A DNA stretch of 64,000 nt from Prorocentrum cordatum (Eukaryota; Sar; Dinophyceae; Prorocentrales; Prorocentraceae): positions 1,984,849 through 2,048,848 of the forward strand of contig CAUYUJ010016059.1 of assembly GCA_963575745.1 (NCBI GenBank), written 5' to 3'. Below, piece by piece: positions 2,791 to 64,000 of this stretch. The notes under the pieces are model-generated. The model had not been told where the DNA came from and did not search any database. It saw nothing but the letters and a program-made list of their open reading frames with translations. The position numbers and the translations under genes are program-made. Positions within the stretch are counted from its first letter, which is position 1, and each line of letters opens with the position of its first letter.

Positions 2791-4640
2791 AAAGTTCTTC
2801 TACGATGTCAGGAGGCATTCCCTTCGGAAACTGATGAGGGTGTTGTTGGCACATCAGACCGTCCACGCGGCTTTAAAGAAGCGGCACAAATCGTTGTCAA
2901 AGGTCCTGACGATGTCACGGATCCGACACTACGCTTATCGCAGAATGCGAGCGTCGACGCTACTGTCTCTGCGTCCAGTGGCGAAAGCTCCCCAGTGCGA
3001 CCGCATGCGCTTAGGCCGGAAGATGCTTGTAACAAAGGACTGGGTATTTCATATATCAATATATCATGGGAGGGCGACGACCCAGAGTCTGTTTCGTTTA
3101 CACATGTTGCTGACAGCGAAACACGCGATGAGGAGAGTCATCGTCAAACTGATGGTTTGGTCGACCCGTTCCGTCAGGACTATGAAATCTTGCCCAGTTC
3201 AGAACTCGACGCTACTGAAAGTCCCCGTGATGATCCGTTCCCTCGGGACATTCCAAGAGCGTCGACGGCGAAGCGACCCAGAGACGTCATCAATTTGTCG
3301 AGGTCACCAGTGAGCAAACGGTCGAAAACAGTGAGCCCGCCAGGAGAATCGCGAACATCATATTCAGGGGTGGCTGAAAAGCGATATTCAATTCGCGCAA
3401 CGCCCTCTTCGCCTCTTCACCCGAGGCGGTTAGAGGCTCGCCCGACCAGGAATTCCATCTTCAGGGCCCGTTTGCCGAGGATTCGACTTTGGGTGTCCGC
3501 GAGATGGCGAGAGCCCCGAGCGACATCGCGAGCATCATCGCGCCTGGCAGGCGCCGATCGCTCGAACGACTCGAGCTACCTAATACTCGACGAATGCTTC
3601 CACAAAGGAGTCGTCTGCGCCGACGTCCCAGAGTTCAGATGTCGGAGAATGCTTGGCAATTGCAAAAAGCCCGACCTTTCGGCGCGACCAGTGAGCTAAT
3701 TCGAATGCAACTTGAGCTTCCTGCGCCTGGCTGCCAGGTTCCCACCGCGCATAATTGCACGGCCCTCCGTCGCCGAGAACGGGAGGCAGCGCGAGAACAG
3801 AAACGCGCCATCCCGATGGAGGATCGGGAAATGGAAGTGGCGCGCGCGCAGGAACAGGGCAGAGCTGCGGAATTTCAGCAGATGGCGGCGGCCAGGCTAC
3901 AAATTGAGAAAGAGCGCCGGGCTGCGGCCCGGGCTCGGGGGCGCAATATGGAACGCCAGCGCCCAGCCATGGCTGAAAGAATCGGAAGAGTTATATCGAG
4001 ATACAGGATGTGCCGTGCCGACTCGAGACAATTGAGGCGGCTGAGATGCAGGCGCGCGCCACCGAGGAGGCTGTCGTTGGAAAGCCGTTATTGCTGTCCG
4101 GGGGGCCGGCCAATGTCAATCGACGGCGTTGGGTCAGCTTGCCGCCGATCTCAAGGCCGCCGCAGCGCGCGACGCAGAATTGACGTCGGAGGCCAACGTT
4201 GAGTTTCAAGAAGCGGCCGTCAAGAATAGGGCCGCTGCGAAGCAGCTAAACGCACAGTGGACGACGAGAGCGCAGTTTTGCTGCGTGAAGCCCGAGGCGA
4301 AGTCTATGATTCTCGATAGGGAGCGCGCCATCGCTTGGGATTCCAACGCCGCATCTGCGCTCGCGGTTGCCGAGGCTGAAGAAGATTCGCTAAGGTCTCA
4401 GACGGTGGAACCGGAAGCCACTGCCAAATTGGGCGCCGCGCCCCGCAGAGCGGAAGGGGTTGCGACGCAGGCGCTCAAGCAATGGGAAGCCCGACGCGAG
4501 GCGCAGCTTCGTGAATTGTCTGAACAACATATCCAGAGCAATTTGAGAGAGAACGCATCAGATAACAAGTCGGCTGCGTCCGATAGTGCGCTTGGCGGGG
4601 CCCCGGGCCCCCGCGAGGTAGCGTGCCCGCCTGTTCGCTT
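2755..4640 (+). pseudogene. Decayed ORF: disordered then Ala/Glu-rich coiled coil
   Basis: Starts at the ATG (2755) at the end of direct repeat A. The first frame runs to 3699 and gives a polar, Ser/Asp-rich chain with a basic patch (KRPRDVINLSRSPVSKRSK). Coding-like sequence then continues in other frames: Glu/Arg/Ala coiled coil around 3750-3990 (MEVARAQEQGRAAEFQQMAA), and more Ala/Glu-rich coil at 4129-4640. At least two frame changes are needed, so I call it broken. Composition resembles ORF1 proteins of dinoflagellate retroelements, but there is no diagnostic domain. It could instead be a host gene remnant; function unknown. Confidence 0.4.
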
Positions 4641-10335: not shown

Positions 10336-10843
10336 CGGATGATAGTTCTGCTTTGTGCGCTCAGCGAGGTTGCTCTGGAGCTTATCGTTCAGAGTATTGC
10401 AGGCAAGAGGCTTGAACTCTTCGAGAATGGTGGAACTGCGAAGATCCTGCGTCTATTTCGCCTCACTCGGCTTCTACGTCTTGTCCGAACATTTCGCCAG
10501 CTGAAGCCCCTCCGTATGCTGGTGCATTCCATAGTTTTCGCTGGCAGAACTGTTTTTTGGGCGCTCGTGCTGCTCCTGATGATCGTATACGCCTTCGGAG
10601 TCGTCTTGACATTGGCTGTAATGGAGCACACAGACGGCGGCAAACGCATCGACGACGAGGCGCTCATAGCTTATTATGGGGATTTGTACCGATCAATGTT
10701 AAGTCTGTGGATGGCTGTGTCGGGGGGTATCAGCTGGATCGAGGTGGCCTTGCCGCTCCAAAGAATTGGTAGCCCCGTGTGGATGGTAGTGTTCCTGCTA
10801 TACGTCATCTTCGTGTACGTCTTCGTACTCAATGTTGTAACAG
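10336..10843 (+). CDS. Voltage-gated cation channel, exon B (S3-S6 with pore)
   Basis: Continues the channel from mid-S3 (MIVLLCALSEVALELI). S4 follows with six arginines at every third residue and a lysine next in register (ILRLFRLTRLLRLVRTFRQL), the classic voltage sensor. S5 is near 10510-10620. The pore loop reads MLSLWMAVSGGISWIEV; the SGGISW filter region lacks the TLESW motif of bacterial sodium channels. S6 ends VYVFVLNVVTG. The exon ends at 10843 in phase 1 with donor ACAG|GTAACC. Reading past that point gives unrelated sequence, whereas exon C supplies the expected VFCQSAF continuation of S6. The exon start is uncertain by up to 3 bases because exon A and this exon share GCG at the join. 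Confidence 0.88.
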
Positions 10844-12039
10844 GTAACCGGGGATACAAGTATCAAGTACCAATATTGGTTTTGAGCATGGGATTTGCAT
10901 ATTTTGTGGTATACCATATGACTACCACACTGATCGATAACCACAAGGTGTAATCATAGTATTATTGATATTCACACTAGCTGTATACATAGTTGCATGT
11001 GCGATCAATTTCGTTTGTTGAGTTAGCCTCGCTATGTGACTCACATGAAATCGCGTTCCTCCGCCTTGCGGGCAGTAATGACCCCGCGTGAGCAGCAGCA
11101 CCGGCCTGTAAGCCCCCCGCCATTACCGTATATGAATCATCTAAGACAGTTTGTTCCCGTTTGATTCAACAGGCTTGCGCCACATCCGCCGCCCCCTCCT
11201 CGAAGCCCGTGGAACTGGAGTTTCGGCGGGCCCCAATGAGGAACCAAAGCTCGAGAATCTGAAAACGTCTGAGTGGTGTGGTGGGGGGGTGTTCTGTAGT
11301 TTTTTCGGAGGCAGGTTAAGAACTTCAAGGTACACATGCGGCACGACGTGCGCGAACGTGAGTGATGTTCCAAATTGAACCTCCGTGTAGCCGTCGTGAA
11401 CGCCATCTGAAAGTTTCCGGAAACCCATCGCCCAACGAGAGTTTTTGAAGGTTTTTGTTTTTGGTCATGATTCGGGGACTGTCGGTTTATGTTGAAAGCC
11501 TCGGGGGGGGAGCCTCTTGGAAGCCTCTGCAGGCCTCGTTGGAACCTCTTCAGATTCTGCTTCCGATTTCTGTTGCGCCTTTAGGCTAGTAGGGCGTAGC
11601 GTGGTGGTCGCCACACTGGCGAATAGAGTGCCTGCAGGGATGAATGCATGCTTGTGATGATGAGGATGACGGTTGGGGTAGCAGCGGTGCAGATGCCGTT
11701 AAACATGAAGTTACATTGTTCAGGGCAATCGCCTTACACATCGATGAACGCGCGGGGACTTGCGACAATCGCCAGGGGTCCGGTGATAATTCTGGCGGAT
11801 GCCTTGTGGTTAGTCGGGGAAAATCGAGCGATAGTAATTGTTCTGATGCCGATTAGGCGACACACGCAGAAAGAAAGCAATGTATACCGCCCGAGACCTC
11901 AAGGAAATCGCCGGAAATTCTGAGGAGACCACCGACAACTGTTTGTTTTATCAGAAGCCATAATGAGGGTCTACATGTTTGACCATGGCTTCCTATAATT
12001 GTAATTATCATCTTTCGGCCCATCCCGCCACCGTGCCCG
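10844..12039 (+). other. Intron 2, 5' part; no recognised gene
   Basis: Intron begins with GTAACC. The stretch has lower GC than its surroundings and no clear repeat. A minus-strand open frame at 11141-11428 (ending PPKKLQNTPPPHHS) looks mildly protein-like but has no family signature. The rest shows nothing I can name. Confidence 0.5.
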
Positions 12040-14487: not shown

Positions 14488-14509
14488 TCCGTAGCCATTT
14501 TGGCTCAAG
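14488..14509 (+). other. Genomic copy of the dinoflagellate spliced leader (exact)
   Basis: All 22 bases fit the DinoSL consensus, including the central GCCATTTTGGCTCAAG and a T at the variable first position. In dinoflagellates this leader is added to mRNA 5' ends by trans-splicing from a small SL RNA. Here it has no donor GT after it (AGAGCC follows), so it is not an SL RNA gene. It marks the 5' end of a reverse-transcribed mRNA. Confidence 0.93.
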
Positions 14510-14654
14510 AGCCAATCTCGCCTTCCTCGGCCCCTTCTACCCTTCTGCTGCCTGCGGCCTACCCCCATGGTCATATCCTGTCTTCTTGCGGATTCGAGCT
14601 ACGTGTTTTTCTCTGTCTTCATACCTTCGGTGTTCTTTTCGACAACGTGTGCAG

Positions 14655-16469
14655 ATGTCCCTCAATCAGTCCCTGGGAGCTCTGCGCATTCATGGGCGGC
14701 GAGCCCGCATATCGGCTCGGACTTGTGCTGAGTTTCACGACGCTTGCGAGTCGATCATGCGTCTACGGGATTGCCAGCGTGGTGTTGTTCCTTACCGTGC
14801 CCCTCATGACCGTGTCCATCGGCGGGGCCAAGCTTTACGGAGAGGGGTATTTCTACAGTACGGTCTCGAAGTCCTTCACGGCGCTCCTCACCGACGTTCT
14901 CTTCATGACATGGTGCGTTGGGCGGCAGATCGCGGCATTTTCAAAGGAGCGGTACTGTATGAAGTGGAACGTGTTGTGCGCCATGCCAATGCTGCCCGGC
15001 ATCAACGTTGGCGGCCTACCACTGAGGGTACTGCGAGGCGCTCCTCATCTCTGCGTGCTGCTGCAGAGGAGTTCGTTCCTGGGCTCCCCCTGCTGTACTC
15101 GGACGAGGTTCTTGCCTGGTGCTTTGAGGCTGCTGGGGCTCCGGAGTATGAGATTGGGCATGCTGCTTCTGACGATCTCTTTGAAGTTGCTTCCTGTTGT
15201 CTTCATGGGAAGCGTGCTGAAATTTTTCCAGAGCATGGTCGTTCGTTTTTGGAGAACGTCCTTCCGGAGCCTGCTCTTAGTGTGGAGCCTGTTCTTCGTG
15301 CTCAGCCTGATCGTCGTGCGGAGCATGATCTTCATATGGAGCCTGTTCTTCGTGTGGGGCGTGCCCTACTCCGTTGCCTCGATGTCGAGCATGATCGCCA
15401 TGTTGAGCCTGGTTTCCGTGTGGAGCCTGTTCTTCGTGATCCTTCTTGTTTTCGTTGGATGCCAGATCTTCCTGGGGAGCATGTGCTTCGTGGTCCTGGG
15501 TTTCCTGCTGAGTTTCCTGATTTTCCTCATGATCTTCATGGTGATTGTGCCGGCGCCCCTGAGCCTGATCGTTCGGGTCTGGAGCTTGTTTTTCGGGAGC
15601 CAGGTCCTCGTGCTGAGCCTGAGTTTCGTGTGGAGCTTGGTGTTCGTGGTCAGCCTGATCTTCGTGTCCATCCTGAGGCTGATCCTCCTTGTGAACACTT
15701 CCCTGGTCTTCCTGACGAGCGTGCCGTACTCCTTCATGCGCCTGGTTGGTCCGATCAGGAGCGTGATGATCCTCTCGGTGGGCGTTTACGTGATGACTTC
15801 TATGAGGGGGTTGGTCGTGCCGTTTGTATTGGGCCTACTCCTAGTTCTGCCATGCCTGATGGAGCTGACCGTGTTGATACGGGGGAGGTCGTTGTACTTG
15901 CCGACCGTTCTGCGGAAGTCGTTCCTGGCGAGATGGATCTCACTGGTGTTCAGCGGATGTTTGATTCGATGGTGGAGAAGCTTGGCGAGAGTATTGACCG
16001 TGTTTTTGCTATTCCTCCCCGTGATGATCCTCTGCTACCCTCAGAACGTGGCATGCTGGTTGGGGCTCTTCCTGGAGATGTGGGGATTCGGAGTGTCCAT
16101 CATGTTTGCTCCAATGTTCCTGAAGAGCCTGGGCAGGATCTTCATGGTGATGCTGTCCGTTCTGAGCACCGTCATACTGCGCACATTCCTGGAGATGGCG
16201 TGCCCCAATCTGTTCACCTTCCTGATGGCCTTCGTGCGGACTCTTCGGCCTCTTCGCTCACACCGTCTGGGCACAAACGTGTTTCGGCCTCGGAACTGGA
16301 GCGGCTTCGACAGCTTCGGCGGGTGATAGGTATTTCTGATGAGGAGGCCGCCTTTCGGCGTACTCTTGGTCGTCCTGCTCCTGTCTCTACCGTTCGCCGT
16401 GAGCATGGGCCAGTTGAACGGTATCACCTCGATGACAGCCCTCCCAGGGTGCTTTACGGATGGGACTGA
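14655..16469 (+). CDS. Uncharacterised protein in the SL retrocopy (604 aa)
   Basis: ATG at 14655 follows 145 bases of leader after DinoSL. The frame is open to TGA at 16467-16469, 30 bases before the A-run. The N-terminal third looks globular (start MSLNQSLGALRIHGRRARI). The middle is a degenerate repeat built on EPVLR and related words, from GAGCCTGTTCTTCGTG. The C-terminus (SASELERLRQLRRVIG onward) is charged and ordinary. No known domain. A second frame, 14500-16326, is also open and has higher GC at third positions, but gives an implausibly hydrophobic Leu/Phe/Val chain. An upstream ATG at 14567 opens a short ORF. I prefer the 14655 frame on composition and on its end matching the retrocopy end. 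Whether it is expressed is unknown. Confidence 0.5.
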   Translation: MSLNQSLGALRIHGRRARISARTCAEFHDACESIMRLRDCQRGVVPYRAPHDRVHRRGQALRRGVFLQYGLEVLHGAPHRRSLHDMVRWAADRGIFKGAVLYEVERVVRHANAARHQRWRPTTEGTARRSSSLRAAAEEFVPGLPLLYSDEVLAWCFEAAGAPEYEIGHAASDDLFEVASCCLHGKRAEIFPEHGRSFLENVLPEPALSVEPVLRAQPDRRAEHDLHMEPVLRVGRALLRCLDVEHDRHVEPGFRVEPVLRDPSCFRWMPDLPGEHVLRGPGFPAEFPDFPHDLHGDCAGAPEPDRSGLELVFREPGPRAEPEFRVELGVRGQPDLRVHPEADPPCEHFPGLPDERAVLLHAPGWSDQERDDPLGGRLRDDFYEGVGRAVCIGPTPSSAMPDGADRVDTGEVVVLADRSAEVVPGEMDLTGVQRMFDSMVEKLGESIDRVFAIPPRDDPLLPSERGMLVGALPGDVGIRSVHHVCSNVPEEPGQDLHGDAVRSEHRHTAHIPGDGVPQSVHLPDGLRADSSASSLTPSGHKRVSASELERLRQLRRVIGISDEEAAFRRTLGRPAPVSTVRREHGPVERYHLDDSPPRVLYGWD

Positions 16470-16495
16470 AGGCGAAGCGTGGTCTTGCGGGGGAC

Positions 16496-16499
<4 letters not shown>

Positions 16500-16528
<29 letters not shown>

Positions 16529-34299: not shown

Positions 34300-34591
34300 T
34301 CAGCCGCCCCCCAGGCGCTGCCGAGCGCCCGCGACCGACCGGGGCTGCCGAGCGGGAGGCCATCTGCTTCATGGTTCTCCTTCTTCCCTTTCCTCCTCAC
34401 GCCCCTGGGCCTCTTCCTGGTCTTGTGCTTCTCCGTCCCCTCCTGATCCATCCTCCTGCTCCTGCACCTCCCTCCGTCTCCTCCTCCGAATCCTCCATCC
34501 TCGACGATCGGGGTTGCGGGCTCCTGGACAACCATGGGCCTCCTTGCCAATCGTCTCCTGCTCCTCCTCCTCCTCCTCCTCCTCCTCCTCC
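34300..34591. repeat. CTC-rich satellite, left flank of the LINE
   Basis: About two units of the satellite seen again at 43100-43260 and 43770-45009 (landmark ATCGGGGTTGCGGGCTCCTGG at 34508), ending in a CTC run (34558-34593) that leads straight into the spliced leader. Confidence 0.75.
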
Positions 34592-34613
34592 TCCGTAGCC
34601 ATTTTGGCTCAAG
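34592..34613 (+). other. Genomic copy of the dinoflagellate spliced leader (exact)
   Basis: Full 22-base match to DinoSL ending GCCATTTTGGCTCAAG, directly followed by ATG at 34614. There is no donor GT after it, so it is not an SL RNA gene. It marks the 5' end of the retrotransposon copy. Confidence 0.93.
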
Positions 34614-34729
34614 ATGGGTTGCTCGGGGGGCTTTCAGCCTCCGTGCTTCACTGGATCGCACTACCGTGCGCAGGCAAGAGTGTGTGCACTCTGGCAGTCG
34701 GGCGGCCTCCTTCCAAACTCACGCGCGCC

Positions 34730-35839
34730 ATGGCGGGGAGCGGCGGCGTGGGTGCTGGGCGTGGGGGAGGCGGCCGCGCGGCGTGGCCTGCGAAGTGGAA
34801 GTGCTCGGTGTGCGACTACTACAACTTCGCCGAGAGGGCGTGCTGTCGCAAGGGGTGCCAAGCTGCGGGGTGGCCAGCGCCGCGGCAGCTGGGCGCCTTT
34901 CCTCCGCTGCGGGGGTGGCCTGCAGGCGGCGGCGGTGGTGGTGCTCCTGGCGGCGCTGGCGGCGGGCGCGGCGGGCGTGGGGCAGGCGGCGGCAAGCCTC
35001 CCACACGTGCCCCGTGGTGGCGAGGCGGAGAAGGTGGCGGCCGTGACGCTGGTGGCGCCGTGGAACTCAGCGAGGAGCAGCGCAGTGGCTTCGTGTGCAT
35101 GGCAGAGGCCGACTTCGCCCTCACCGCCGCGCTCCTGGCCCCGAAGGTCCGCGAGCAGCTTCTGCAGGCACGGAGGCTGCGTGAGGGCGGACTGGGGGCC
35201 GAGCTGTCCAAGGACAAGACGGTCAAGGCGGCCCAGGTGCAGGCGGACGCCAAGGTCTTGCAGGTCAAGAAGTTGGAGGGCCAGCTGGAGCAGGCAAAGG
35301 CCAAGGCGGTGGCGGCCATCAACGAGTCGGCCAGCCTCGCGGACAAGTTGGTGCTGCTGCGGAAGGAGTGCGACGAGGCGGCGGCCAAGGCACGCGAGGC
35401 GCTGGCGGCTCAGCGCACCAGGGTGGCGGCCGAGGAGGCTGAGGCGGCGGCAGCAGCCGCCGAGCCGAGAGCAGCACCAGCAGCCTCCCTGGAGTCGATA
35501 CAGGAGGCGATCGGCGGCTTGTCGAGGGACGAGATCGCGAAGCTCGGGAAGGTGTTTGCGGAGCTCAGCGGCATGCCAGGCGCCGCCGCCGCAGCGTGGG
35601 CGCCTCCCCGTGCGCCTGTGGCAGCGGCGGTCCCTGTGCCCTCGGCGGTGCCAGCAGCAGCGCAGCAGGTGGACGCTCCCAAGGAGGAGGGGCCTGGCGT
35701 GTCGCAGGCGGCGCAGCAAGCGTGGCAGGACATCACGTGCGGGATTGAGGACCCCGCCAAGAGGGAAGCAGCGGAGCAGTTGCTGGGCGACGCCAAGAAG
35801 ATGCGGACGGAGGTCAAGCAGATGGAGGAGGAGTCCTAG
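34730..35839 (+). CDS. LINE ORF1: zinc finger and coiled coil (369 aa)
   Basis: ATG at 34730 gives MAGSGGVGAGRGGGG. A RanBP2-like finger follows near residues 22-50 (WKCSVCDYYNFAERACCRKGC), then a Gly-rich linker. A long Ala/Glu/Lys coiled coil (about residues 120-250, for example VLQVKKLEGQLEQAKAK) and an Ala/Pro-rich C-terminal part end KKMRTEVKQMEEES. The stop is at 35837-35839. LINE ORF1 proteins coat the element RNA; that role is inferred from position and coiled coil. The first ATG after the leader is 34614 in another frame, which reads as Arg/Ser-rich nonsense across this region. That makes ORF1 the second AUG on the mRNA, or the copy has changed since insertion. This ORF is intact. 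Confidence 0.75.
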   Translation: MAGSGGVGAGRGGGGRAAWPAKWKCSVCDYYNFAERACCRKGCQAAGWPAPRQLGAFPPLRGWPAGGGGGGAPGGAGGGRGGRGAGGGKPPTRAPWWRGGEGGGRDAGGAVELSEEQRSGFVCMAEADFALTAALLAPKVREQLLQARRLREGGLGAELSKDKTVKAAQVQADAKVLQVKKLEGQLEQAKAKAVAAINESASLADKLVLLRKECDEAAAKAREALAAQRTRVAAEEAEAAAAAAEPRAAPAASLESIQEAIGGLSRDEIAKLGKVFAELSGMPGAAAAAWAPPRAPVAAAVPVPSAVPAAAQQVDAPKEEGPGVSQAAQQAWQDITCGIEDPAKREAAEQLLGDAKKMRTEVKQMEEES

Positions 35840-35852
35840 CAAGAAGTGTGGG

Positions 35853-37050
35853 GTCTGGAGGATCTGCACGGTCAACGTCAATGCGTTCAGCAACCTTGGA
35901 AAGTGCATGGCGGTGAGTGAGGTGCAGGGGACGAGGCTCCTGGAGGGAAGGAGCAGTGATGCGGAGGCGCAGCTCCGCAGCCAAGGGTGGCGGGCGAGAG
36001 GCACGCCTGCAGTGCCGTCAGCGGCAGGAGGCCTCAGCACAGGAGGCCTCCTCACCATGGTGAGGAGGAGCCATGGCATGGCGGAGGTGCAGGACCAGCA
36101 GGCAGCGGTGCTGGTGGCAGGGCGAGTGCACCTGTGTTGGGTGTCAGGCGTGCTGAGCAGCGGCTTCTTGCTCGCCAACCTCTACCTGGAGGCGGGGGTC
36201 GGCCTCAACGATGGCAACGTGGCCAGCCTCAGGAGGCTGGCAAGGAGGTTGAGGCAGTGCCGCAGGGACTTCGTGGTGGGCGGCGATTGGAACCTCACGG
36301 AGGAAGAGTTGCAGGCAGGCGGGGTGCCCGACATGTTCGACGGCAAGGTGGTCAGGCCCGCCTCGCCCACGTGTGCAGCGTCGGGGAGGACCATCGACTT
36401 CTTCCTGGTGTCCAGGGGGCTGGCTGCGCTGGGTGCGCGGGTGGTGGAGGCCTCGCCAGTGTACCCGCACTCGGCGGTGATCCTCGAGATCCGCAGGCAG
36501 CAAGAGGAGGAGCGCTTCAGGCTGGTCCAGAAGCCGCGGACCTTTCCTGAGGTTCGGCCGCAAGGGTGTTGTGAGAGAGACCACGGCAGCAGCTGGAGGC
36601 AAGCCAGGATGAGGGTGCAGGAGCAGCTCGCGTCGGTGCTGAGGTTCGAGGGTGAGGCCGCAGCGAGGAGCACCCCACGTGCTGAAGAGGAGGCCCCTCA
36701 GCCCAGCAGCAGTGGTGGCGCAGCAGGTCAGCGCGCAGCTAGAGCTGGCCTGGAGATTCCCAGGCCAGTGAGGGGCAAGGGAGCTGAAGGGGTGTCTGCG
36801 GCGGAGAGATGGGGACCACTAAGCAGCGTGCTCCCGATCGCATCTGCGCCGCCGTCTTGCGTGACGGACGTGAATCTGATGAGGTGCTGCGTCCAGCATG
36901 GCGAGGAGTGGCAGAGCATCCTCGACAGCTGCGGGCTACGGCGAGAAGTTGGCGCGGAAGGGCTCGGCGCTGCACCAGGCGTTGAGGACCAGCCAGCGCA
37001 CCCCGGGGCCCTGGCGCCAGGAGCGCAGGGCACCGACGCAGCGGAGAGGG
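35853..37050 (+). pseudogene. LINE ORF2, endonuclease part (frame broken after)
   Basis: Follows ORF1 by 13 bases in another frame, with no good ATG before 35907. It encodes an exonuclease-endonuclease-phosphatase domain, the nicking enzyme of APE-type LINEs. The core asparagine motif CTVNVNAFSNL starts it. GGLLTMVRRSHG, FVVGGDWNLT with the catalytic D and N (36282-36293), TIDFFLVSRGL, and a PHSAV end follow. The motif normally written QET reads VQGTRL here (GGG for a Glu codon), so the metal-binding glutamate is missing. Spacing between the first two motifs is also short, suggesting a deletion. After about 37050 the frame is lost because of a 2-base deletion in the duplicated linker. Confidence 0.75.
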
Positions 37051-37805
37051 GGCAGCAGCGCCGCGGGCAGCGCTGTGCAGGAGGCGCAGGCGGACATCCC
37101 TCCCCATGCTGGGGCTGGCAGTGCACCTCCGAGCCAGGCACCGTACGGAATCGCGGGTTGTCCCTTTCAGGTTGATGCGGCTGAAGGAGTGCACGTGAGG
37201 CCCCCCAGCCTCTGGGTCGAGAAGAGGCAGGCAGCCTCTGCCGCTGAAGAGGAGGCCCCTCAGCCCAGCAGCAGCGGTGGCGCAGCAGGTCAGCGCGCAG
37301 CTGGAGCAGGCCAGGAGCTTCCCAGCCCAGTGAGGGGCAAGGAAGCTGAGGAGGTGCCTACGGCGGAGAGATGGGGACCCCTAGGCAGAGTGCTCCCGAT
37401 CGCACCTGCGCCGCCATCCTGCGTGACGGACGAGAAGCTGATGAGGTGCCGCGCCCAGCATGGCGTGGAGTGGCAGAGCATCCTCGACAGCTGCGGGCTA
37501 CGGCAGGAAGCTGGCGATGAAGGGTACGGCGCAGCGCCACGCGGCGAGGTCCAGCCAGCGCACCTCGGAGCTCAGGCGCCAGGAGCGCATGACGCCGACG
37601 CAGCGGAGAGAGGGGGCAGCAGCGCCGCGGGCAGCGCTGCGCAGGAGGAGCAGGCGGACAGTCCTCCCCATGCTGGGACTGGCAGTGCACATCCGAGCCA
37701 GGCACCGTACGGAAACGCGGGTAGTCCCTTTCAGGTTGAAGCGGCTGAAGGAGTGCACGTGAGGCCCCCCAGCCTCTGGGTCGAGAAGAGGCAGGCAGCC
37801 TCTTC
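36681..37805 (+). repeat. Tandem duplication within LINE ORF2 (562 + 563 bp)
   Basis: Copy 1 is 36681-37242 and copy 2 is 37243-37805, about 85-90% identical by eye. Both begin GCTGAAGAGGAGGCCCCTCA. Near 37050, copy 1 has GAGAGGGGGC where copy 2 has GAGAGAGGGGGC, a 2-base difference. The ancestral unit would be a multiple of three (188 codons); the deletion in copy 1 moves the reading frame. Confidence 0.85.
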
Positions 37806-39045: not shown

Positions 39046-39665
39046 CTCAGGCGTGCGAGCAGGTGCAGCATGGGCGCCTCATCCAGGCCGCCCAGCGGAC
39101 GGGCTTCCCGCTCTGGCAGCTCAGGCTGCAGGTGAGCTTGTACCGTGCGCCCAGGTGGCTGGCGCGGGACGAAGCCGTCAGCAACGCCATCAGCACCGAG
39201 CAGGCGGTGCTGCCTGGAGACGGGCTGGCGACGCTCATGCTCAAGATGCTGCTGCTTGAGCCGCTGGACAAGCTTCAGGAGCTGGTTCCCACGCTGGCGA
39301 TTTCGGTGGTCGTGGATGACATCATCCTGAAGAGGGTGGGCGGCTTCCAGCGGACAGTCAACGACCTCGCGCTGGCGGCCAGGCACCTCGAGGTACTGCT
39401 CGGCGAGGCCGACCTCGAGGTCGCGGTGAAGAAATCCAGGGCGCTGGCGAATGTGCCAGCAGCGAGGCAGGAGCTCGAGAAGCGCCTGCTGAAGCCGCTG
39501 GGGGTGCGCGCCACAGGACAGGAGAGGAACCTGGGGGTCGACTTCAGCGGTGGCAAGAGGATAGGACGAGCAGTTCGTCGCGACAGGATGGTGCAGGCGA
39601 GCGGCAGGCTGCGCAGGATCAAAGTGCTGCAGGTGGTCAAGGCCAAGCGGAGGGCCACCAAGAGG
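39046..39665 (+). pseudogene. LINE ORF2, reverse transcriptase palm
   Basis: Frame 0 segment carrying the rest of motif A (CEQVQHGRLIQAAQRTGFPL), motif B-like PGDGLATLMLKMLL, and the catalytic motif C VVVDDI at about 39308-39325. AVKKSRAL and the thumb-region LGVDFSGGKR follow. The frame ends in a break near 39665, where homology continues in frame 1 with KTGLHPCIGYGTAITG. Copying LINE RNA at a nicked target is the family role; this copy is broken. Confidence 0.8.
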
Positions 39666-42930: not shown

Positions 42931-43014
42931 CTGCGCCGAGGCGCGGGCGCGCGCGGGGCGCGCGCCTCGCAGGGGTGGCCGTGGCTCGACGCGGTCCGCC
43001 TCGCCCCGCGGGCA

Positions 43015-43270
43015 TCATCATCCTCCTCCTCCTCCTCCTCCTCCTCCTCCTCCTCCTCCTCCTCCTCCTCTGTCTTCTCATCCTGCCTCCTCCTTTCCCT
43101 CCTGCTCCTTCCTCTCCTCCGCCTCCGAGCCTCCTCCTCGTCCGCCTCCTCGTCCCTCTGTCCGTCTCCTCCTGCGCATCCTCGAGCCTCCGGATCCGGG
43201 GTGCGGGCTCCTTGACGCCCTTGGGCCTGCTCCTCAACGGTCTTCTGCTTCCTCCTCATCCTTCACCCTG
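43015..43270. repeat. CTC-rich satellite, right flank of the LINE
   Basis: Begins GCATCATCATCCTCCTCC, runs as perfect CTC triplets to about 43073, then becomes one satellite unit with GGGGTGCGGGCTCCTTGACGCC at 43196. It matches the satellite left of 34592. Confidence 0.8.
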
Positions 43271-43769
43271 AAGGCCTGGATGCTCAGGCATCGGAGGCGG
43301 CCCGAAGGGGCAGTCGACTAATGCATGGCGCACAGCGAGAGGCCTGCGAGCTTTCCCTGTTCAGCAATGGTCGAGAGTCCTTTGCCAGTTTTTGCGTAGT
43401 AGGCTCAGTCATCTGCAACGGCACCCCATCAGCATGGCAGCCCTAGCTGTGGTTGGGCAGAGCCACTCTTGGGTCACCCAGGTCAGGGGAAGTTGGGATA
43501 GCCCAGCCTCCGCCTCCTCAAAAGCCTTCACGGGGCCGTCTCGGCGTCGCGTCCCAGGTGGGACCGGACAGGGTGGACCACAAGGATCAATGTTCAGGCC
43601 ACCCGTGACACAAAGATCTTGTTGGCCTTAGTTGGAGACATGTTGTCGCTATTGAACGTCCGTGTCCGATCAGGCTCGCATGAGCCCTTGGATTTAACGT
43701 GCCCTTGGTCTAGTTCGTAGGTATCGACGTGTCAGGGCGCGTCAGTCAGTTAGTCTGACATCTTTCTCC
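43271..43769. other. Unique spacer within the satellite
   Basis: About 500 bp of ordinary-looking DNA with no recognised gene or repeat, possibly another insertion in the satellite. Confidence 0.4.
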
Positions 43770-45009
43770 TCCTGTTCATCCTCCTCCCTCCGTCTCCTAC
43801 TCCTCCATATCTTCGATCCTCGACGATCTGGGATGCGGCCTCCTGGGCGCCCCCTGGGCCTCCTCCCCAACGGTTTCCTTTTGCTCATTCTCCTGTTCCC
43901 TCTTACTGCTCCTCGTCCTTCTCGTCCTCCTCCCCCTCGTCTCCTATTCCTCTGCATCCTCGGTCCTCAGCAATTGGGGACGCGGGCTCCTGGGCGCCCC
44001 TGGGCCTCCTCCCCAGCGGTGTCTTGTTCCTTCTCATCCGTCTCCTCCTCCTCCTCCTCCTGCTCTCTCCTACTGCTGCTCCTCCTCCTCGTCCTCCTCC
44101 TCCTCGCGCAGGTTTCTTCTCCTCCGCATCCCCGGTCCTCAACGATAGGAAATGCGGGTTCTTGGGCACCCCTGGGCATCCCCTTCAGCGGTTTCATGCT
44201 GCTCCTCCTCGGTCTCCTCCTCCTCCTCCTCCTCCTCCTCCTCCTCCTTCCTCCGTCTCCTCCTCCTCCTCCTTTGCAGATTCGATCCTCACTGATCGGG
44301 GATGCTGGCGCCTGCACGTCCATGAGCCTCCTCCTCCTCAACGGTCCCTCGCTTCTCCTCGTCCTCCGTTTCCTTCTTTTAATTCTGTCTTCTCATTGCG
44401 CATCCTCGGCCCTCAACAATACGGGCTCGCCCTTCGTCCTTCTCCTCCTCAACGGACTCCTGCTCCTTCTCATCCTCCTCCTGCTTCCTCCTCCTCGATC
44501 CTCAACGGTTGGGGATGCGGGCTGCTGGACATCTCCTCCTCGACGGTCTCCTGTGCCTCCTCCTCCGTCTCTTCCTCCTGCTCTTGCCTCCTGCACCTCC
44601 TTCGCCTCATCTCTCCGCCCCCTCCCCATCCACATCCCTCAGGGATGCGGGCTCCTGGACGCCCTTGGGCCTCCTCCTCAACGGTTTCCTGCTGCGCCTT
44701 CTGCTCGCTCCTCCTGCGTCTCCTCCCCCTCCTCTCTCCGCCTCCTCCTCCGCACCTAGACTCTCAGGAGATGTGGGCTCCTGGACGCCTCCAGGCCTCC
44801 TCAACAGTTTCCTGCCCCTCCTCCTTCGTCTTCTCCTGCTCCCTCCTCCTGCTCCGCATCCCAGCCCTCCCTCCGTTCCCTCCGTCTCCGCATGTTCGAT
44901 CCTCAACGATCGGGCTTGCGGGCTCCTGGACGCCGCTGGGCCTCCTCCTCGACGGTATCTGTTTTCTCTTCTTCCTCCGTCTCCTCTTCCTGCTCCCTCC
45001 TCCCCCTGC
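43770..45009. repeat. CTC-rich satellite array, about ten units
   Basis: Variable-length units (about 90-170 bp) of CTCCTCCGTCTCC-rich DNA. Each contains CCTCAACGATCGGGGATGCG and GGCTCCTGGACGCC, for example near 43833, 43983, 44152, 44303, 44515, 44646, 44771 and 44918. Leucine/proline-rich frames through it are not genes. Confidence 0.85.
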
Positions 45010-45029
45010 CCGTGTCCATTTGGCTCAAG
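45010..45029 (+). other. Worn genomic copy of the dinoflagellate spliced leader
   Basis: CCGTGTCCATTTGGCTCAAG differs from DinoSL by two substitutions and one missing T, but keeps TTTGGCTCAAG. It abuts the CTC satellite on its left, exactly as the intact copy at 34592 does, and precedes a decayed ORF. Position and context make chance unlikely. Confidence 0.75.
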
Positions 45030-57332: not shown

Positions 57333-57533
57333 GGTGGAACACGCAGGCTGGGGGGCAACTGGCCCAGACCTGCGCCCAGACAGCCACACCAGAAGACATC
57401 GGGGATATTGGGCCCAGACTCAGAGACCCGTGCGGTGACGAGCCTACGCCCAACGACCCCCGCCCACGGCCCCTGGCCGCACGCGCACGATCGCACCTAG
57501 CTTCCATCACACTACATAGTTACGTCCAAGCCG

Positions 57534-60500
57534 ATGCGAGCCTGGGGGGATGCCGCATCCGCTTCAAACCACCAACGCTCTACTAGGGAGCCCCGACTCA
57601 AAAGACGCAGCAGACGAACCACCTGCATTACTAGCTCCCTAGACGTCGCAACTGTGGGCAAGGGTGGGGACCACCCACAGAACGGCGACACCAAGTTTGA
57701 GCGCTCCAAGCGCGGACCTGAGCGACTCCCTCAGGCCGCGATCCCCACTGCCAGCGGGGTCCAGGCAGTCAACCAGCACCGCGACGGGGTGAGGCTGCAA
57801 CAAGAGTGGGAGAGCTACTCGAGCAGCCAGCCGCAGCGCCAACAGCGTGGACCAAGGCGACACCCCTTGGCCACGCCAGGATCGACACCCCACTTCGCGG
57901 GAGCCGCGGCGGCCCATGCGGCGTCGCAATCCTGGCAGCACAGCCGCGCGAAGGAGGACCCAGGCAGCAGGTCGAGACTATCAGATCTATCACATCTGGA
58001 GGTCTCCCAGCGCCGGGTACTCTGGGAGCATCCCACACTTGCAGTCGACGGAGCCTGGCTCTCTCGCCAACCTCTTGACACCAGCCACTTGGGCTCGCAA
58101 GCAGACCACATGGCAAGCATAAGGACCCCTAGGGGGCTGGCTAGTCCACCAGCGACAGCCAAATTAAATGCACATACCACGACACAACCAAGCACTGACC
58201 ACACCCGACAGATACAGCATGGACCCATACAAGCCTACGAGCTAGAGCAAATACAGGATACATACCTCGACAGCAAAGGCATCAGCCCAACCCCAGCAGA
58301 ATCGCACCTCAACGACGCCACAGCAGTTGCAAAAGCAAGAAGAGTGGCGAGGCGCAAAAGAGTACTCAGACAGGCGCTTAGGGCGGAGATGCGCCCAGAC
58401 CTTGGAGCGACGCTGACCAAGAACTCCTTCGAGGCGCTTGCGGACAGCAGCAGCAGCGAGGACGACGCACGGCCAGATAGCACTCAGCCCCCTGGAGCGG
58501 AACACCCTGAAGAGCGGGACTTGGAATTCGCCAGCGGGTGCCCGAGTCGAGAGCGCCGCAGCAGCTGCCCGAGGTCGCGTACTACTTGGAGGCCAGCGCC
58601 TCGCTCCACAGCAGCAGAGCACACTCAATGCTCTGACGAGCCCAAACAACACAACGTACCGACCAGGACCTGTCTGCGTTGGCGTGTCAGCGCGGGGTCG
58701 CCTCACTCTGCAAGGCCGTCGACGGGCGGACCTGCTCTCCCCGAGCAGCTGCGGGTTGACTCCCCCTTGCAGGTGCGAAGACGCGAGGGCATGCCTCCGA
58801 CGGGAGGGTGGTCGACGCCTTGCTCTCGCGTCAGCGATGTCGTGCTGGGGCGCCCAACCAGGCCCAACGAGGACCAACCATCTACACTCCCGACACCGAC
58901 ACCAGCCAAACCAAGCTTAGACCCTCATGAGCAGCGGGCAGAGCCAGTACCACTCACCCTTTCACCACCGAACCCAAGCGACCCTCCTGGCGGCATAACT
59001 CATCGCCTACGTGACAGCATGCTCCATGCCCAATCACACGAGCCCCTGTTCAGTCAGGCCGTGCGGGCTGGATCGGACAACTTGAACGCCGATGAGAAGT
59101 GCTGCCAAAGACCACCGACCCCGCGGGAGAGGAGCACGACGCGGACGGGGACCAAGCCCTACAAGCCAGCCGACCACTTGGAGACCGAGCAACCACTCCC
59201 AGACACAACGACTAATACCAGACAACACCCCCAGCCCCAGAGGGACGTGCAAGCCCGACGAGCAATGCTGCCGCTCAGGAGCTACCACGGCGCTAGCGGG
59301 CAGCCGACGGGACAGCAACAACCCATCCCCGCACCACAACGACGCACAACCTCAGCCATGCACCCCTTCCGTATTCCAACTAGACGCAGCATAACGGCGG
59401 ACGACGCTCGAGACAACCAACGCACTAGCACTGACAGCGAGTACAGCGACGACTATCTACGCTGGGAGCGCAGGAGGAGACGACGACAAAGAACTAGACC
59501 AGCAACACACGGTCAAGCGCACAAAACCGACCTGCGCAGAGACAGCAACAGCACGCAGCGACGCTTTGTCAACATTGGATCACCACAGTTCCTACCGACG
59601 CAGTTTCAACAACACATCCAGAAGCTGACATGGCATTACGACCTCGAGGAGCACGACCTGCACGAGCACACCAGGCTGGCGGTGAGGCACCTTGCCCCCT
59701 CGAGACCTTCGGCGTATGTGAAGCGGCATTACTACTTCACCGACGCGTCCTACCACGCCAAAGCACCTGGCACATCGGCATGGGCAGTGGTACACCTGAG
59801 AGAAGACGACCAGGGCATCGCCTACTACAGACACATGTACTCCAACCACGCCCTGTCTGTCAGCGAGGAAATGGCCAACAACATCACCTCCAGCACCAGC
59901 CCCGAATTGGGAGCGTTGCTCTGGGCAGGCATCGCATGTATCCAGGAGGACGATGAGCAGGAGATCGTCATTATCGGCGACAACACCGCGGCTCTGGGAG
60001 CGGCAGCTGGAACATCGCGGATCAGATCGTGTAGGAACCGCCCTCTCGCGAGGTTTACACGTATATTATTCCAGCAACTACAGCCCACAAAGGCCATCAG
60101 TTTCGAACACACACATGCGCATCGAGATGCACCCTGGAGTGAAGCAGCAGATATTTTATCAAAATATGCGGCGCTCCAACCAGCGCCGCCACCACCCGCG
60201 GAAGAGCTAGTTGACATAGTACGGTATACCAGCACACTCGAATGGGCTTGGATGGCTAATCCTGCGTGCAAGGACCTACATGCCTACCCAACATGGAGGC
60301 ATGGACAGCTCGAGGAGCACGTCTTGCCCCAGCTGGCTGACGCAGACCACATCCCCGACCTTACCGCAGATAGCTACAACAAGGGCACGCTGAAGCTCAA
60401 CATCGTGCAGTACAACGCTCAGTCCATGGTGGGCGACTTTACCTCCACAGACCTGCACCTGGACATCTCCAGCAAGGGGGCTCTAGTCAGAGCCCAACTT

Positions 60501-63500
60501 TTGGATCACCAGGTCCACGTCGCGGGGCTGCAGGAGACACGCTGTAAAGAGGCCATATGGACAGGACAAGGTTTCATCAACATCCAGAGTGAGGCGCAGG
60601 ACGGCAACTGGGGATGTGCACTACTACTCAACGCCGAGATCCCGCACGGGCAGCTCAAAGGGAAAGACCTGTACTTCAAGCAGTCCCAGCTTACAAAACT
60701 GTACTCTTCGGCCAGGATCCTCTTCGTCCGCGTGCAGGCTCCTTTGTTCCACCACGTCATCGCCGTTGCTCACGCCCCGTACCAGAAGGCCAAGGACATC
60801 AACGGCTGGTGGGAACACTTCAGAGAGCTGCGTGACATGTGGAAACCAGAGATCCTGCTCATCGACGCGAACGCCAAGCTAAGTCACAAGGACGGAGAGG
60901 ACACACAATGGTTGGGCCAGAAGGGCCCAAACCAGCTGACAGACAAGAATGGACACGAATTCCACGAGTCTGTCGCCAGCTGCCACCTGCACGTCGTCAA
61001 CACATACTACGGGAACAGCGACGACTACACATACCACAAGGATGGGGTCTCCAACCGCATCGACTACGTCGCCATGGCTCCCGGCCTGTTCAAGTGCGTC
61101 GCGGCCTGCACTGTCCTGAGGGACTTTCAAAAGCCGACCGCCAAAAAGAAGAACGAGCACAGCAAGCAGAGGAGCAACTACGCCCAGAACGGCTACGACA
61201 CGACCACAGACCACCTGCCCGTGCTGGTTGAAGTCGTGGGCGACATCATCGGACGCCACCGAAACTTGAAGGGAAATGCGCTACTGGACACTAATAAACT
61301 CAAGAACCCAGAGTGCATCACCGCATTCAAGCAGGACCTGAACAACATCAGCTTACCACCGTGGAAGGCAGACGTCAATGATCATTACCACGAGACGGCG
61401 GGGCTCATTGTCGAGAAGACGAGGCAGCATTTCGGACGGGACCCGCTTACACCTTGCAACGTCACAATCTCAGAGGCCAGCATGCGTCTATTGAGGCTGC
61501 GCAGATACGCTGAGAGCCCCACGCGGACCTACACGGACAACGGGGATCCAGCACCACTAGAAGTTTTCCGCGAGAGGCTCTGCTACGAGGCGTTGGTCTA
61601 CGCCCGCGTGGAAGATAGCTGGTATTGCTCTGTGGCAGCCCTTGCTGGCGCCTGCCAGCTCAGCCGCACCACCGACTGCCTCGGTATCGTGCATGGCGCC
61701 GCGAGGCTTTTCATCGCCCACACCAGGGGCACTTTCAGGCACCAGCTGAGCATCGACCGCAAACAGTATTTCCACGACCTCGGCAGCAAATTGGCGGACA
61801 GCAGAACAGCAAGAGACGCCAGGACCGAGTGGCAGCTGACTAAGAAGATTCTGATCCATGGCGGCCGCAAACCAAAATACGTCAGTGCGCTGCCCACCAC
61901 GCAGCAGCCCGACGGCACCGTCATGGGCAGCCAGTGCGAGACCAGTCGCGCCACGCTGCAGCACTTCGCCAAGATCGAGTCAGCAGACATCAGGGACAAA
62001 TACGACCTCGCGGACCGCTACAACGGCAGCCGTGCCCACAGATCACCACCCGACGAGGTTTCACAGCACCTGCACATGACACTCAATGATCTGGTGGAGA
62101 GCTTCGCGGACGGCAAGAAGGGCCGAGCAGGAGGACCCGACGGCAATTTGGACGACATCCTCAAGCTCGCGCCCGAGGAGACGGCCCGCCACTGGTACCC
62201 TGTCGTCCTGAAGACGATATTGCGAGGCCGCGAACCGATCCAATTTAAGGCAGGTATTGCAGTGAAGCTTTACAAGGGCAGCGGCACGAGGGCCCTACTG
62301 GAGTACTACAGGTCGATCCTCCTCAACAACACCGTGGCCAAGCACTACCACAAGTGGCTCCGCTCAACGACGTTGAGGGTCTGCAGCAGCCTGTTGAGAG
62401 TCACCCAGCATGGCGGAATCCCGAAGAAGTCAGGCGCGTACTCCACTCACACCATCAAAGCGTTCTTCGGGGTCTGCAGGCGGAGACGTCCCAGCGCAGT
62501 CGGCATCCTGTTGGACCTCCGACAGGCCTTCTACTCTGTCATTCGCGAGTTCGTGCTGGGACGGGAGGGGGAGAAGCCTTGGCTCCTAAAGGTGATGGCA
62601 GGAGGCGCCCCACCTGAATGGCTCATGCCAGCCATCCAGCAGTTGATCGCGGCACCAGGCTACTTAGCACTCAACGACGTAGACGAGAACCTGCGATTCC
62701 AGCTAGAAGAAGCACACGACACGACATTCTTCCAAGCGCGGGGAGATGAGCTTTGCGCGGAGAGCCGCAAGGGCACACGCCCAGGTAACGGCCTGGCTGA
62801 CCTCATCTTCAACATCAGCTTCGCGCACGCCCTGGGCCCGCTGGAGCAGGAGCTACATTCGGGAGGGTACTTATTACAGCTACCACCGGCGGGAGAGCAA
62901 GCCATTGCCACGTCAGGCCAGTTCCGAGGGCTTGAGGGGACCCTGCCAGAAGTATCCTTCATGGACGACGCGACATTCCTGTGCGTACTCAGGGACAACA
63001 CGAAAATCGAGAGCAGCATCTTTGACATATTGTCCATCATTGCGAGGAGACTCAAGATCTTTGGGCATGACCTGCACCCCAAGAAGACTAAAGCGTTGCT
63101 GCATATTGATGGGCACGCCAAACTGCATATCAAGGCGAAGATTTTCAAGACAAACCCCATCACGCTGCAACGCGAGGAATGCCAGCCTCCGACCAGCACT
63201 GATGTCACCACGGCTGAGGTCACGACCCAGGGACTCACATTGGGCAATATTGTGGCAAGTGATGGCGGGGAGGGGCCGAACCTTATGAGACGCATCATCG
63301 ACCACAGATCCGCAGAGGGTCCATTGAAGAAGTCCATCTTCCGTCTGCCGCACATCGACCTCAAAGCCAAGTTGCTGTATCTCACGGCACTGGCGCAGAG
63401 CAAGCTGACCTACGACTGCGAAGTATGGGGACCGCTGACAGTACAGCAGAAACAGATGTTGCAGAGCAGACACATGGCGAGCCTACGGGCCGCCGCACGG

Positions 63501-64000
63501 CAACAGCGACACGGCGCGGGGCACGTACATACTTTGGACGACGAAATATACTTGATATGTGATGAAGTACCGATCCACATGTACCTGCGCCGACGGCGCC
63601 TGATGTACTTGGCCAGAATGGCGCATGCAGACACGCCCTTCCTCCACCGCCTCATCGACGAGCTTTGGGGGGATGATAAAGCCTGGAATGCCCTTATCGT
63701 CGAGGATCTGGACTGGATAAGAAGATTCCTACTAGACGACGAGGACATTGGCTGCGACATCAGGGGCTTGGTACGATGGTTACGAACACAGCAAGTGCAA
63801 GCCGCACAAGCCATGATCACGCGTGCGTGGCTCAGGTACAAGGCATGGCAGCACGATTTATACCGACATCGAATATGGCAAAGGCAGTTACACCGTCTAG
63901 CGCAAGAGTTTGGACTGACCACGCCCAACTTCGATGGATTGCCGCCTGCACAACACAGTGGCTACATATGCTATGAGTGTGGCAAGATCCTAAAAACTCG
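57534..64000 (+). CDS. Retrotransposon polyprotein: RNase H, APE endonuclease, reverse transcriptase (partial, at least 2155 aa)
   Basis: Open in one frame from just after UAG 57498-57500 to the window edge; the first ATG is 57534. Residues 1-680 are polar and disordered. RNase H follows with D737 (YFTDASYH), E791 (SPELGALLWA), D816 (GDNTAAL) and D873 (HAHRDAPWSEAADILSK). The APE-type endonuclease has N961 (VQYNAQS), E1001 (LQETR), AHAPY, D1111/N1113 (LLIDANAK), RIDYVAM and D1226/H1227 (TDHLPV), all intact. Reverse transcriptase has GPDGNLDDI, EYYRSILLNN, motif A D1661 (LLDLRQAFYSV), motif B RKGTRPGNGLADLIFN, motif C D1811/D1812 (SFMDDATF), HPKKTKAL and a thumb with KLTYDCEVWG. A CYECGK zinc-finger start is cut by the edge. 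It should nick DNA, copy the RNA and degrade the template. Confidence 0.92.
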   Translation, partial: MRAWGDAASASNHQRSTREPRLKRRSRRTTCITSSLDVATVGKGGDHPQNGDTKFERSKRGPERLPQAAIPTASGVQAVNQHRDGVRLQQEWESYSSSQPQRQQRGPRRHPLATPGSTPHFAGAAAAHAASQSWQHSRAKEDPGSRSRLSDLSHLEVSQRRVLWEHPTLAVDGAWLSRQPLDTSHLGSQADHMASIRTPRGLASPPATAKLNAHTTTQPSTDHTRQIQHGPIQAYELEQIQDTYLDSKGISPTPAESHLNDATAVAKARRVARRKRVLRQALRAEMRPDLGATLTKNSFEALADSSSSEDDARPDSTQPPGAEHPEERDLEFASGCPSRERRSSCPRSRTTWRPAPRSTAAEHTQCSDEPKQHNVPTRTCLRWRVSAGSPHSARPSTGGPALPEQLRVDSPLQVRRREGMPPTGGWSTPCSRVSDVVLGRPTRPNEDQPSTLPTPTPAKPSLDPHEQRAEPVPLTLSPPNPSDPPGGITHRLRDSMLHAQSHEPLFSQAVRAGSDNLNADEKCCQRPPTPRERSTTRTGTKPYKPADHLETEQPLPDTTTNTRQHPQPQRDVQARRAMLPLRSYHGASGQPTGQQQPIPAPQRRTTSAMHPFRIPTRRSITADDARDNQRTSTDSEYSDDYLRWERRRRRRQRTRPATHGQAHKTDLRRDSNSTQRRFVNIGSPQFLPTQFQQHIQKLTWHYDLEEHDLHEHTRLAVRHLAPSRPSAYVKRHYYFTDASYHAKAPGTSAWAVVHLREDDQGIAYYRHMYSNHALSVSEEMANNITSSTSPELGALLWAGIACIQEDDEQEIVIIGDNTAALGAAAGTSRIRSCRNRPLARFTRILFQQLQPTKAISFEHTHAHRDAPWSEAADILSKYAALQPAPPPPAEELVDIVRYTSTLEWAWMANPACKDLHAYPTWRHGQLEEHVLPQLADADHIPDLTADSYNKGTLKLNIVQYNAQSMVGDFTSTDLHLDISSKGALVRAQLLDHQVHVAGLQETRCKEAIWTGQGFINIQSEAQDGNWGCALLLNAEIPHGQLKGKDLYFKQSQLTKLYSSARILFVRVQAPLFHHVIAVAHAPYQKAKDINGWWEHFRELRDMWKPEILLIDANAKLSHKDGEDTQWLGQKGPNQLTDKNGHEFHESVASCHLHVVNTYYGNSDDYTYHKDGVSNRIDYVAMAPGLFKCVAACTVLRDFQKPTAKKKNEHSKQRSNYAQNGYDTTTDHLPVLVEVVGDIIGRHRNLKGNALLDTNKLKNPECITAFKQDLNNISLPPWKADVNDHYHETAGLIVEKTRQHFGRDPLTPCNVTISEASMRLLRLRRYAESPTRTYTDNGDPAPLEVFRERLCYEALVYARVEDSWYCSVAALAGACQLSRTTDCLGIVHGAARLFIAHTRGTFRHQLSIDRKQYFHDLGSKLADSRTARDARTEWQLTKKILIHGGRKPKYVSALPTTQQPDGTVMGSQCETSRATLQHFAKIESADIRDKYDLADRYNGSRAHRSPPDEVSQHLHMTLNDLVESFADGKKGRAGGPDGNLDDILKLAPEETARHWYPVVLKTILRGREPIQFKAGIAVKLYKGSGTRALLEYYRSILLNNTVAKHYHKWLRSTTLRVCSSLLRVTQHGGIPKKSGAYSTHTIKAFFGVCRRRRPSAVGILLDLRQAFYSVIREFVLGREGEKPWLLKVMAGGAPPEWLMPAIQQLIAAPGYLALNDVDENLRFQLEEAHDTTFFQARGDELCAESRKGTRPGNGLADLIFNISFAHALGPLEQELHSGGYLLQLPPAGEQAIATSGQFRGLEGTLPEVSFMDDATFLCVLRDNTKIESSIFDILSIIARRLKIFGHDLHPKKTKALLHIDGHAKLHIKAKIFKTNPITLQREECQPPTSTDVTTAEVTTQGLTLGNIVASDGGEGPNLMRRIIDHRSAEGPLKKSIFRLPHIDLKAKLLYLTALAQSKLTYDCEVWGPLTVQQKQMLQSRHMASLRAAARQQRHGAGHVHTLDDEIYLICDEVPIHMYLRRRRLMYLARMAHADTPFLHRLIDELWGDDKAWNALIVEDLDWIRRFLLDDEDIGCDIRGLVRWLRTQQVQAAQAMITRAWLRYKAWQHDLYRHRIWQRQLHRLAQEFGLTTPNFDGLPPAQHSGYICYECGKILKT

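Follow-up and report, generated by a model that had tools for sequence, protein, structure and literature searches.

A LINE retrotransposon of the dinoflagellate Prorocentrum cordatum very probably acquires the 22-nt spliced leader of its host (DinoSL) by trans-splicing, and the leader-capped RNA would then serve as the template of target-primed reverse transcription (TPRT) and be copied up to the cap, complete copies thereby beginning with the leader and insertion favouring (CTC)n/(GAG)n arrays. The comparison starts from a window, i.e. the whole stretch of 64,000 nt that was analysed (assembly GCA_963575745.1, contig CAUYUJ010016059.1), and provides sequence evidence for LINE machinery copying leader-capped RNA in dinoflagellates. 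The element and its surroundings are arranged as follows.

34399..34594, plus strand: CT-rich tandem array immediately 5' of the leader; each unit measures about 148 bp and includes a (CTC)n run
34592..34613, plus strand: DinoSL, 22 nt, exact match; the first T is assignable to (TCC)n instead
34614..37172, plus strand: frame opened by the leader-adjacent ATG, overrunning ORF1 and reaching the endonuclease; broken in the window copy
34653..34670, plus strand: GGAT and hairpin CGCAC-TACC-GTGCG in the 5' UTR, read from the sequence
34730..35839, plus strand: ORF1, 369 codons, zinc-finger-like start
36222..36458, plus strand: endonuclease, Pfam-matched stretch (PF03372, E 0.016); domain start at about 35860 by motif
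39111..39632, plus strand: reverse transcriptase (RT), C-terminal part with VVDD, by alignment to P0003
40606..41064, plus strand: RNase H (PF00075, 3.2e-8)
42931..43012, plus strand: 3' UTR and approximate 3' end, with GCGGGCATCA in both full copies, then (TCC)n
43013..43264, plus strand: CT-rich array, resuming 3' of the LINE
43766..45007, plus strand: more units of the CT-rich array flanking the LINE
45010..45029, plus strand: relict SL that closes the CT-rich array, absent from the original prediction

The 21-nt invariant part of DinoSL was found to be exact at 34593–34613, preceded by a T at 34592, and a chance leader at 34593 was rejected by shuffling (0 matches expected in 100 shuffles). 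The original prediction had placed DinoSL at 34592–34613 with an ATG directly after it, and both were confirmed, the ATG occupying the next base, 34614. It had also described an 8.4-kb LINE with endonuclease, RT and RNase H; the domains and the length (8.4 kb, to about 43012) stood, whereas ORF2 was found to be frame-broken in the window copy. The element has an RT, whose alignment to P0003 scored 169 against a shuffled maximum of 63, an APE-type endonuclease ahead of it (a Pfam match that is weak by itself) and RNase H. No long terminal repeats were detected, the self-comparison of the window giving no repeat pair that joins the LINE ends, the CT-rich array aside. ORF1 starts with a zinc-finger-like CxxC, recognized by eye, and gave no Pfam match; P0004, a JGI metagenome protein, is 96% identical to its last 246 residues. 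The inserted copy begins with the leader, as expected of a DinoSL retrocopy, and the poly(A) expected for an mRNA retrocopy was absent from the 3' end, where the 3' UTR passes into (TCC)n in both full copies. A search for special RNA structure at the 3' end performed no better than shuffles. The CT-rich array flanks the LINE on both sides, a feature that had gone unremarked, and a profile built from the units at 43825–45007 matched 34506–34594 with an E value of 9.7e-16. Since the array reaches the leader and resumes past the 3' end of the LINE, leader and LINE look like one inserted piece; both ends of the LINE fall within (CTC)n, where a target-site duplication is indistinguishable from the array. 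About 500 bp of foreign sequence (43265–43765) interrupts the array without a leader and is perhaps another insertion.

Two further copies of the window LINE, L023 and L073, were found among the first 70 leaders examined, which, scaled from 2/70, gives a rough guess of about 400 tagged copies genome-wide; every copy was recovered through the exact leader. Among these leader-selected copies, none of full length showed a conserved 5' region other than the SL, the outcome that would have contradicted the original prediction. L023, on another contig, is 98.77% identical to the window copy over 8,537 bp, with 71 mismatches and six indels, some of them frame-shifting. This sister copy (read as L035 and L036) is intact, and a single frame gives the matches to all three domains: RNase H (9.5e-8), RVT_1 (9.3e-4) and Exo_endo_phos (0.005), the last two being below Pfam's curated cut-offs. 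L073, preceded by a C/T-rich stretch (60 bases examined), is identical to the window LINE at 239 of the 240 nt after the leader. The junction SL|ATGGGTTGC is common to all three copies, and with the leader at the same base in each it looks like a regular end of the element rather than an accident. A LINE that landed once beside an older relict leader would account for the window copy, and the relict SL with which the CT-rich array closes at 45010 offers a parallel; the recurrence of the junction at the other places, L023 and L073, makes such a one-off fusion extremely improbable, and shared descent from one duplicated segment is not suggested by L023, whose flanks are (CTC)n on both sides and otherwise differ from those of the window. 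The body behind the relict SL showed no significant match to the window LINE. A 562-bp tandem duplication in ORF2 (36681–37804, about 90% alike) was considered as damage of the window copy, and this was rejected because the sister copy has the same repeat; its presence in both full copies indicates that it belongs to the element.

SLACS, CZAR and NeSL are LINEs that insert into SL RNA genes. They likewise adjoin spliced-leader sequence, whereas the target of the window LINE is a simple-repeat array. The direct contact between SL and element would fit targeting of this kind; it is nevertheless hardly credible here, given that CT-rich array flanks the element, that no SL intron follows on the 3' side in the two full copies and that the window has no Rfam SL RNA match, a search in which DinoSL genes may be missing from Rfam.

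In the 4.13-Gb assembly, 14,218 exact DinoSLs (7,201 and 7,017) were counted, and the reversed pattern gave 0. The sample consisted of the first 70 of these, up to 3 kb being read at 30 places and 321 bases at the other 40; it is not random, and L064–L066 are near-identical local copies. A simple-repeat array, called at a score of at least 0.5 over the 40 bases upstream of the SL, preceded 47 of the 70 leaders and was mostly (CTC)n/(GAG)n, against a background of 4–5%; the best class was CCT in 30, AGG in 14, ATC in 1 and CGT in 1, and a TA-rich repeat in L015. LINE insertion thus appears to favour simple-repeat arrays, a preference which the original prediction had missed. The remaining 23 of the 70 leaders are without a preceding array and count against the proposed mechanism. 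The T that is the first base of the 22-nt leader stands ahead of the 21-mer in 64/70, which supports tagging of LINEs by the leader, and an ATG directly follows the SL in 13/70. Insertion inside simple repeats is shared with the microsatellite-inserting LINEs of the R1 clade; the copy of the window LINE differs in beginning with a host leader.

The leader was also found at the head of other LINEs. L009 represents an independent lineage of the same build as the window LINE (RVT_1, 7.5e-16) and is 91.6% identical to L021, the two forming one lineage, while L013 combines an endonuclease match (3.2e-8) with two stacked leaders. Endonuclease-like sequence was recognized by eye in L018, L019, L021 and L026; with three LINEs identified by Pfam and four by such an eye-read motif, at least seven of the first 30 leaders in the sample stand at the head of a LINE. 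This suggests that counts of host retrogenes made from genomic DinoSLs may include LINEs. Stacked leaders had been proposed beforehand as the sign of repeated rounds, and the check was positive, a second leader (within three edits) accompanying 11 of the 70 SLs, including that of the LINE L013. L076, another of the 11, has a start that weakly resembles that of the window LINE (score 19 against a shuffled maximum of 14). The identical leader position in three copies, together with the other tagged lineages, indicates that the copied RNA already included the leader. The claim that trans-splicing precedes target-primed reverse transcription thus held for its first half, the common junction and the stacked leaders showing that the RNA carried the leader; TPRT itself we infer. 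Alternatively, the leader could have become a permanent 5' end that is encoded in the DNA of the element, possibly belongs to a promoter and is copied without new trans-splicing in each round. The same junction in three copies is compatible with this, and a promoter motif TTT(G) in retroposed DinoSL has been proposed by Song et al. (PMC6050394); the stacked leaders in 11/70, L013 included, show repeated addition in tagged elements and make a DNA-encoded end unlikely. The sample was drawn on exact leaders, so conservation of the leader is not judgeable from it.

Three features are read directly from the sequence, namely the fixed position of the leader, its stacking and the array context, and around them the trans-splicing model would run as follows. 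RNA from the element, or read-through RNA, would be trans-spliced at an AG just upstream; translation of ORF2 would begin close to the leader and that of ORF1 further on; the RNA would be copied to its cap by TPRT at (CTC)n/(GAG)n. The leader would presumably be added afresh in each round, and in a later round the array could act as the pyrimidine tract and an AG of the old leader as the acceptor, giving stacked leaders.

In DinoSL-tagged retrogenes the leader is likewise copied into the 5' end of the DNA, with stacked relicts from repeated rounds; these are host genes (PMC6050394), whereas the tag described here belongs to the retrotransposon itself and joins it at a junction that is constant across several copies. 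The same review calls the retroelement behind DinoSL retroposition unknown and more likely an LTR element (PMC6050394), and the present results bear on which element drives dinoflagellate retroposition, a question left open there. SymbioLINE of Symbiodinium are also dinoflagellate LINEs with ORF1 upstream of the RT ORF, some of them carrying a DNA methyltransferase; no nested frame is described in the available part of that paper, and the word 'leader' is absent from its main text (PMC5890265). The host of the trypanosomatid L1Tc/ingi LINEs likewise trans-splices its mRNAs; luciferase transcripts driven by the L1Tc Pr77 were without leader, and the 5' end of these elements carries a promoter and an HDV-like ribozyme (PMC4748587, PMC4035085), whereas the window LINE gave no ribozyme match. 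An HDV-like ribozyme at its 5' end was in fact discarded, none being found in 34300–34900, where the sole match listed was a sub-threshold snoRNA. LINEs have been implicated in retroposition of SL-bearing viral genes (PMC10235124). An SL at LINE 5' ends and a nested ORF1 are not described in the accessible text of PMC11453091, PMC12014239, PMC3229502, PMC7245778, PMC10235124, PMC8045281, PMC7789003, PMC4748587, PMC4035085, PMC5890265, PMC5009743 and PMC6050394. Where the leader is present, the 5'-completeness of a LINE copy becomes readable at sight.

The ATG next to the leader has a possible coding role that the original prediction had missed. In L023, 2,781 codons can be read without a stop from this ATG, across the overlap with ORF1 and on through endonuclease, RT and RNase H, and ORF1 lies nested within in a different frame; L009 is organized alike, with 1,864 codons and a nested ORF1. 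A test on nine lineages (Fisher 1.3e-8) was discarded because its loci had been preselected for two open frames, and was replaced by a blind rule: at each of 30 loci, the frame chosen was the 5'-most one that is complete, opens with an ATG 30–300 nt past the SL and spans 300 codons or more. This rule, which ignores the other frames, yielded an ORF in 18 of the 30 loci. The +1 frame ran the full length of the ORF without a stop in 13 of the 18, compared with 1.09 expected under a null that preserves protein, codon use and codon context (the context part learned from one element, L023), and the +2 frame in 0/18; the exceptions were L018, L020, L030, L033 and L034. The tail value of 8e-16 presumes independent loci, a condition violated by kinship among the lineages, as between L009 and L021. 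Ahead of the ORF1 start, the stops by frame were 1, 12 and 10 in 605 codons at 11 loci, which had been picked for open frames and include two related ones.

Substitution phases separated the two frames. Between L009 and L021, the overlap showed 9, 64 and 14 substitutions by phase, so that ORF1 is the constrained protein there, and beyond ORF1 the counts were 4, 2 and 18, indicating constraint on the ORF2 frame in that part; L011 and L027 gave 15, 52 and 21 within ORF1. Where ORF2 overlaps ORF1, substitution phase therefore gave no support for protein constraint on the ORF2 frame, which stays stop-free there without protein conservation. On balance we lean towards a model in which trans-splicing would give the LINE both its 5' end and the setting for the start of ORF2: an AUG at or near CUCAAG|AUG would open ORF2, which overruns ORF1, and ribosomes would get to ORF1 by leaky scanning, passing over the short leader, with an overlap that is kept stop-free but not conserved as protein. 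If true, a translation lane is held open through another gene, coupling the host leader to the polymerase of the element.

The open ORF2 frame across ORF1 might alternatively be a by-product of codon context, with ORF2 translated after a frameshift or a reinitiation event close to where ORF1 ends, a reading that is somewhat doubtful and yet has several observations on its side. The overlap is without protein constraint, and codon context does lower the number of stops expected. Across the 70 SLs, each of the three frames is open over the first 79 codons with similar frequency (31, 29 and 27), the SL|ATG loci being open over that length in 8 of 13. An in-frame AUG upstream of ORF1 is missing in L019 and L025, the corresponding stretch of L010 contains a stop, and the frame of L005 ends at codon 410. 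A by-product of context does not readily give 13 of 18 open +1 frames against a context-corrected expectation with none in +2, nor the uninterrupted frame of L023 and L009, which extends from the ATG through the whole of ORF2, nor the bias of stops ahead of ORF1. At the blind-rule loci L017, L022, L031 and L033 the ORF has another phase relative to the SL; these four, together with L005, L010, L019 and L025, may be decayed copies or counter-examples. The model of an ORF2 start near the leader, with leaky scanning to ORF1, is testable with reporters.

A small hairpin follows the leader in part of the sample. Eight of the first 30 loci carry GGANACC with a 4-bp stem and a 6-nt loop, about 25–50 nt after the leader, and the motif was present at 11 of the 70 SLs. 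In the eight loci 32/32 pair cells are paired, with two-sided changes at 2/4 pairs, and the covariation score was reached by 0/500 shuffles, the stem having been chosen after viewing the eight sequences, of which L009 and L021 are one lineage. The hairpin of the window LINE at 34653–34670 is similar to the one shared by other SL-tagged elements, and a related start occurs in L071. Rfam gave no match at the hairpin; four weak miRNA matches were listed further downstream in L021.

Exact leaders were also encountered in other collections. An AT-rich, giant-virus-like contig (IMGVR_UViG_3300045993_001077; 2746–2913, minus strand) has two exact DinoSLs, one of them followed by a more GC-rich, gene-like stretch that looks like captured dinoflagellate cDNA. 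The start of a chimeric bacterial MAG contig (CAJXDJ010000191.1, 1–60) shows (TCA)n and then an exact DinoSL. In JAKUNN010000063.1, from a eukaryote binned as a bacterium, DinoSL at 4334–4354 is followed by GT in the spacer between LSU and SSU rRNA genes and is probably an SL RNA gene in rDNA. IMG/VR relatives of the RT/RNase H part were sought, with 4 pattern matches and 0 confirmed.

The window holds a second exact SL, at 14489, which had not been mentioned before.

14488..16469, plus strand: second exact SL and 652-codon open frame, embedded in (CAT)n repeats, which pick up again at 16499

No GT intron follows the SL here or at 34593, and an SL RNA gene was therefore rejected at either exact leader. 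No homologues of the protein encoded at 14489 were found. Within 14510–16500, two frames are jointly open for about 550 codons (0 stops, compared with 4.8 in synonymous shuffles, P 0.0013). Elsewhere in the window, a stop-free frame of 2,166 codons (57501–63998) runs off the window end, with no Pfam match at E 1, and a partial ion channel gene (PF00520, 4.6e-13) is located at 10336–10950.
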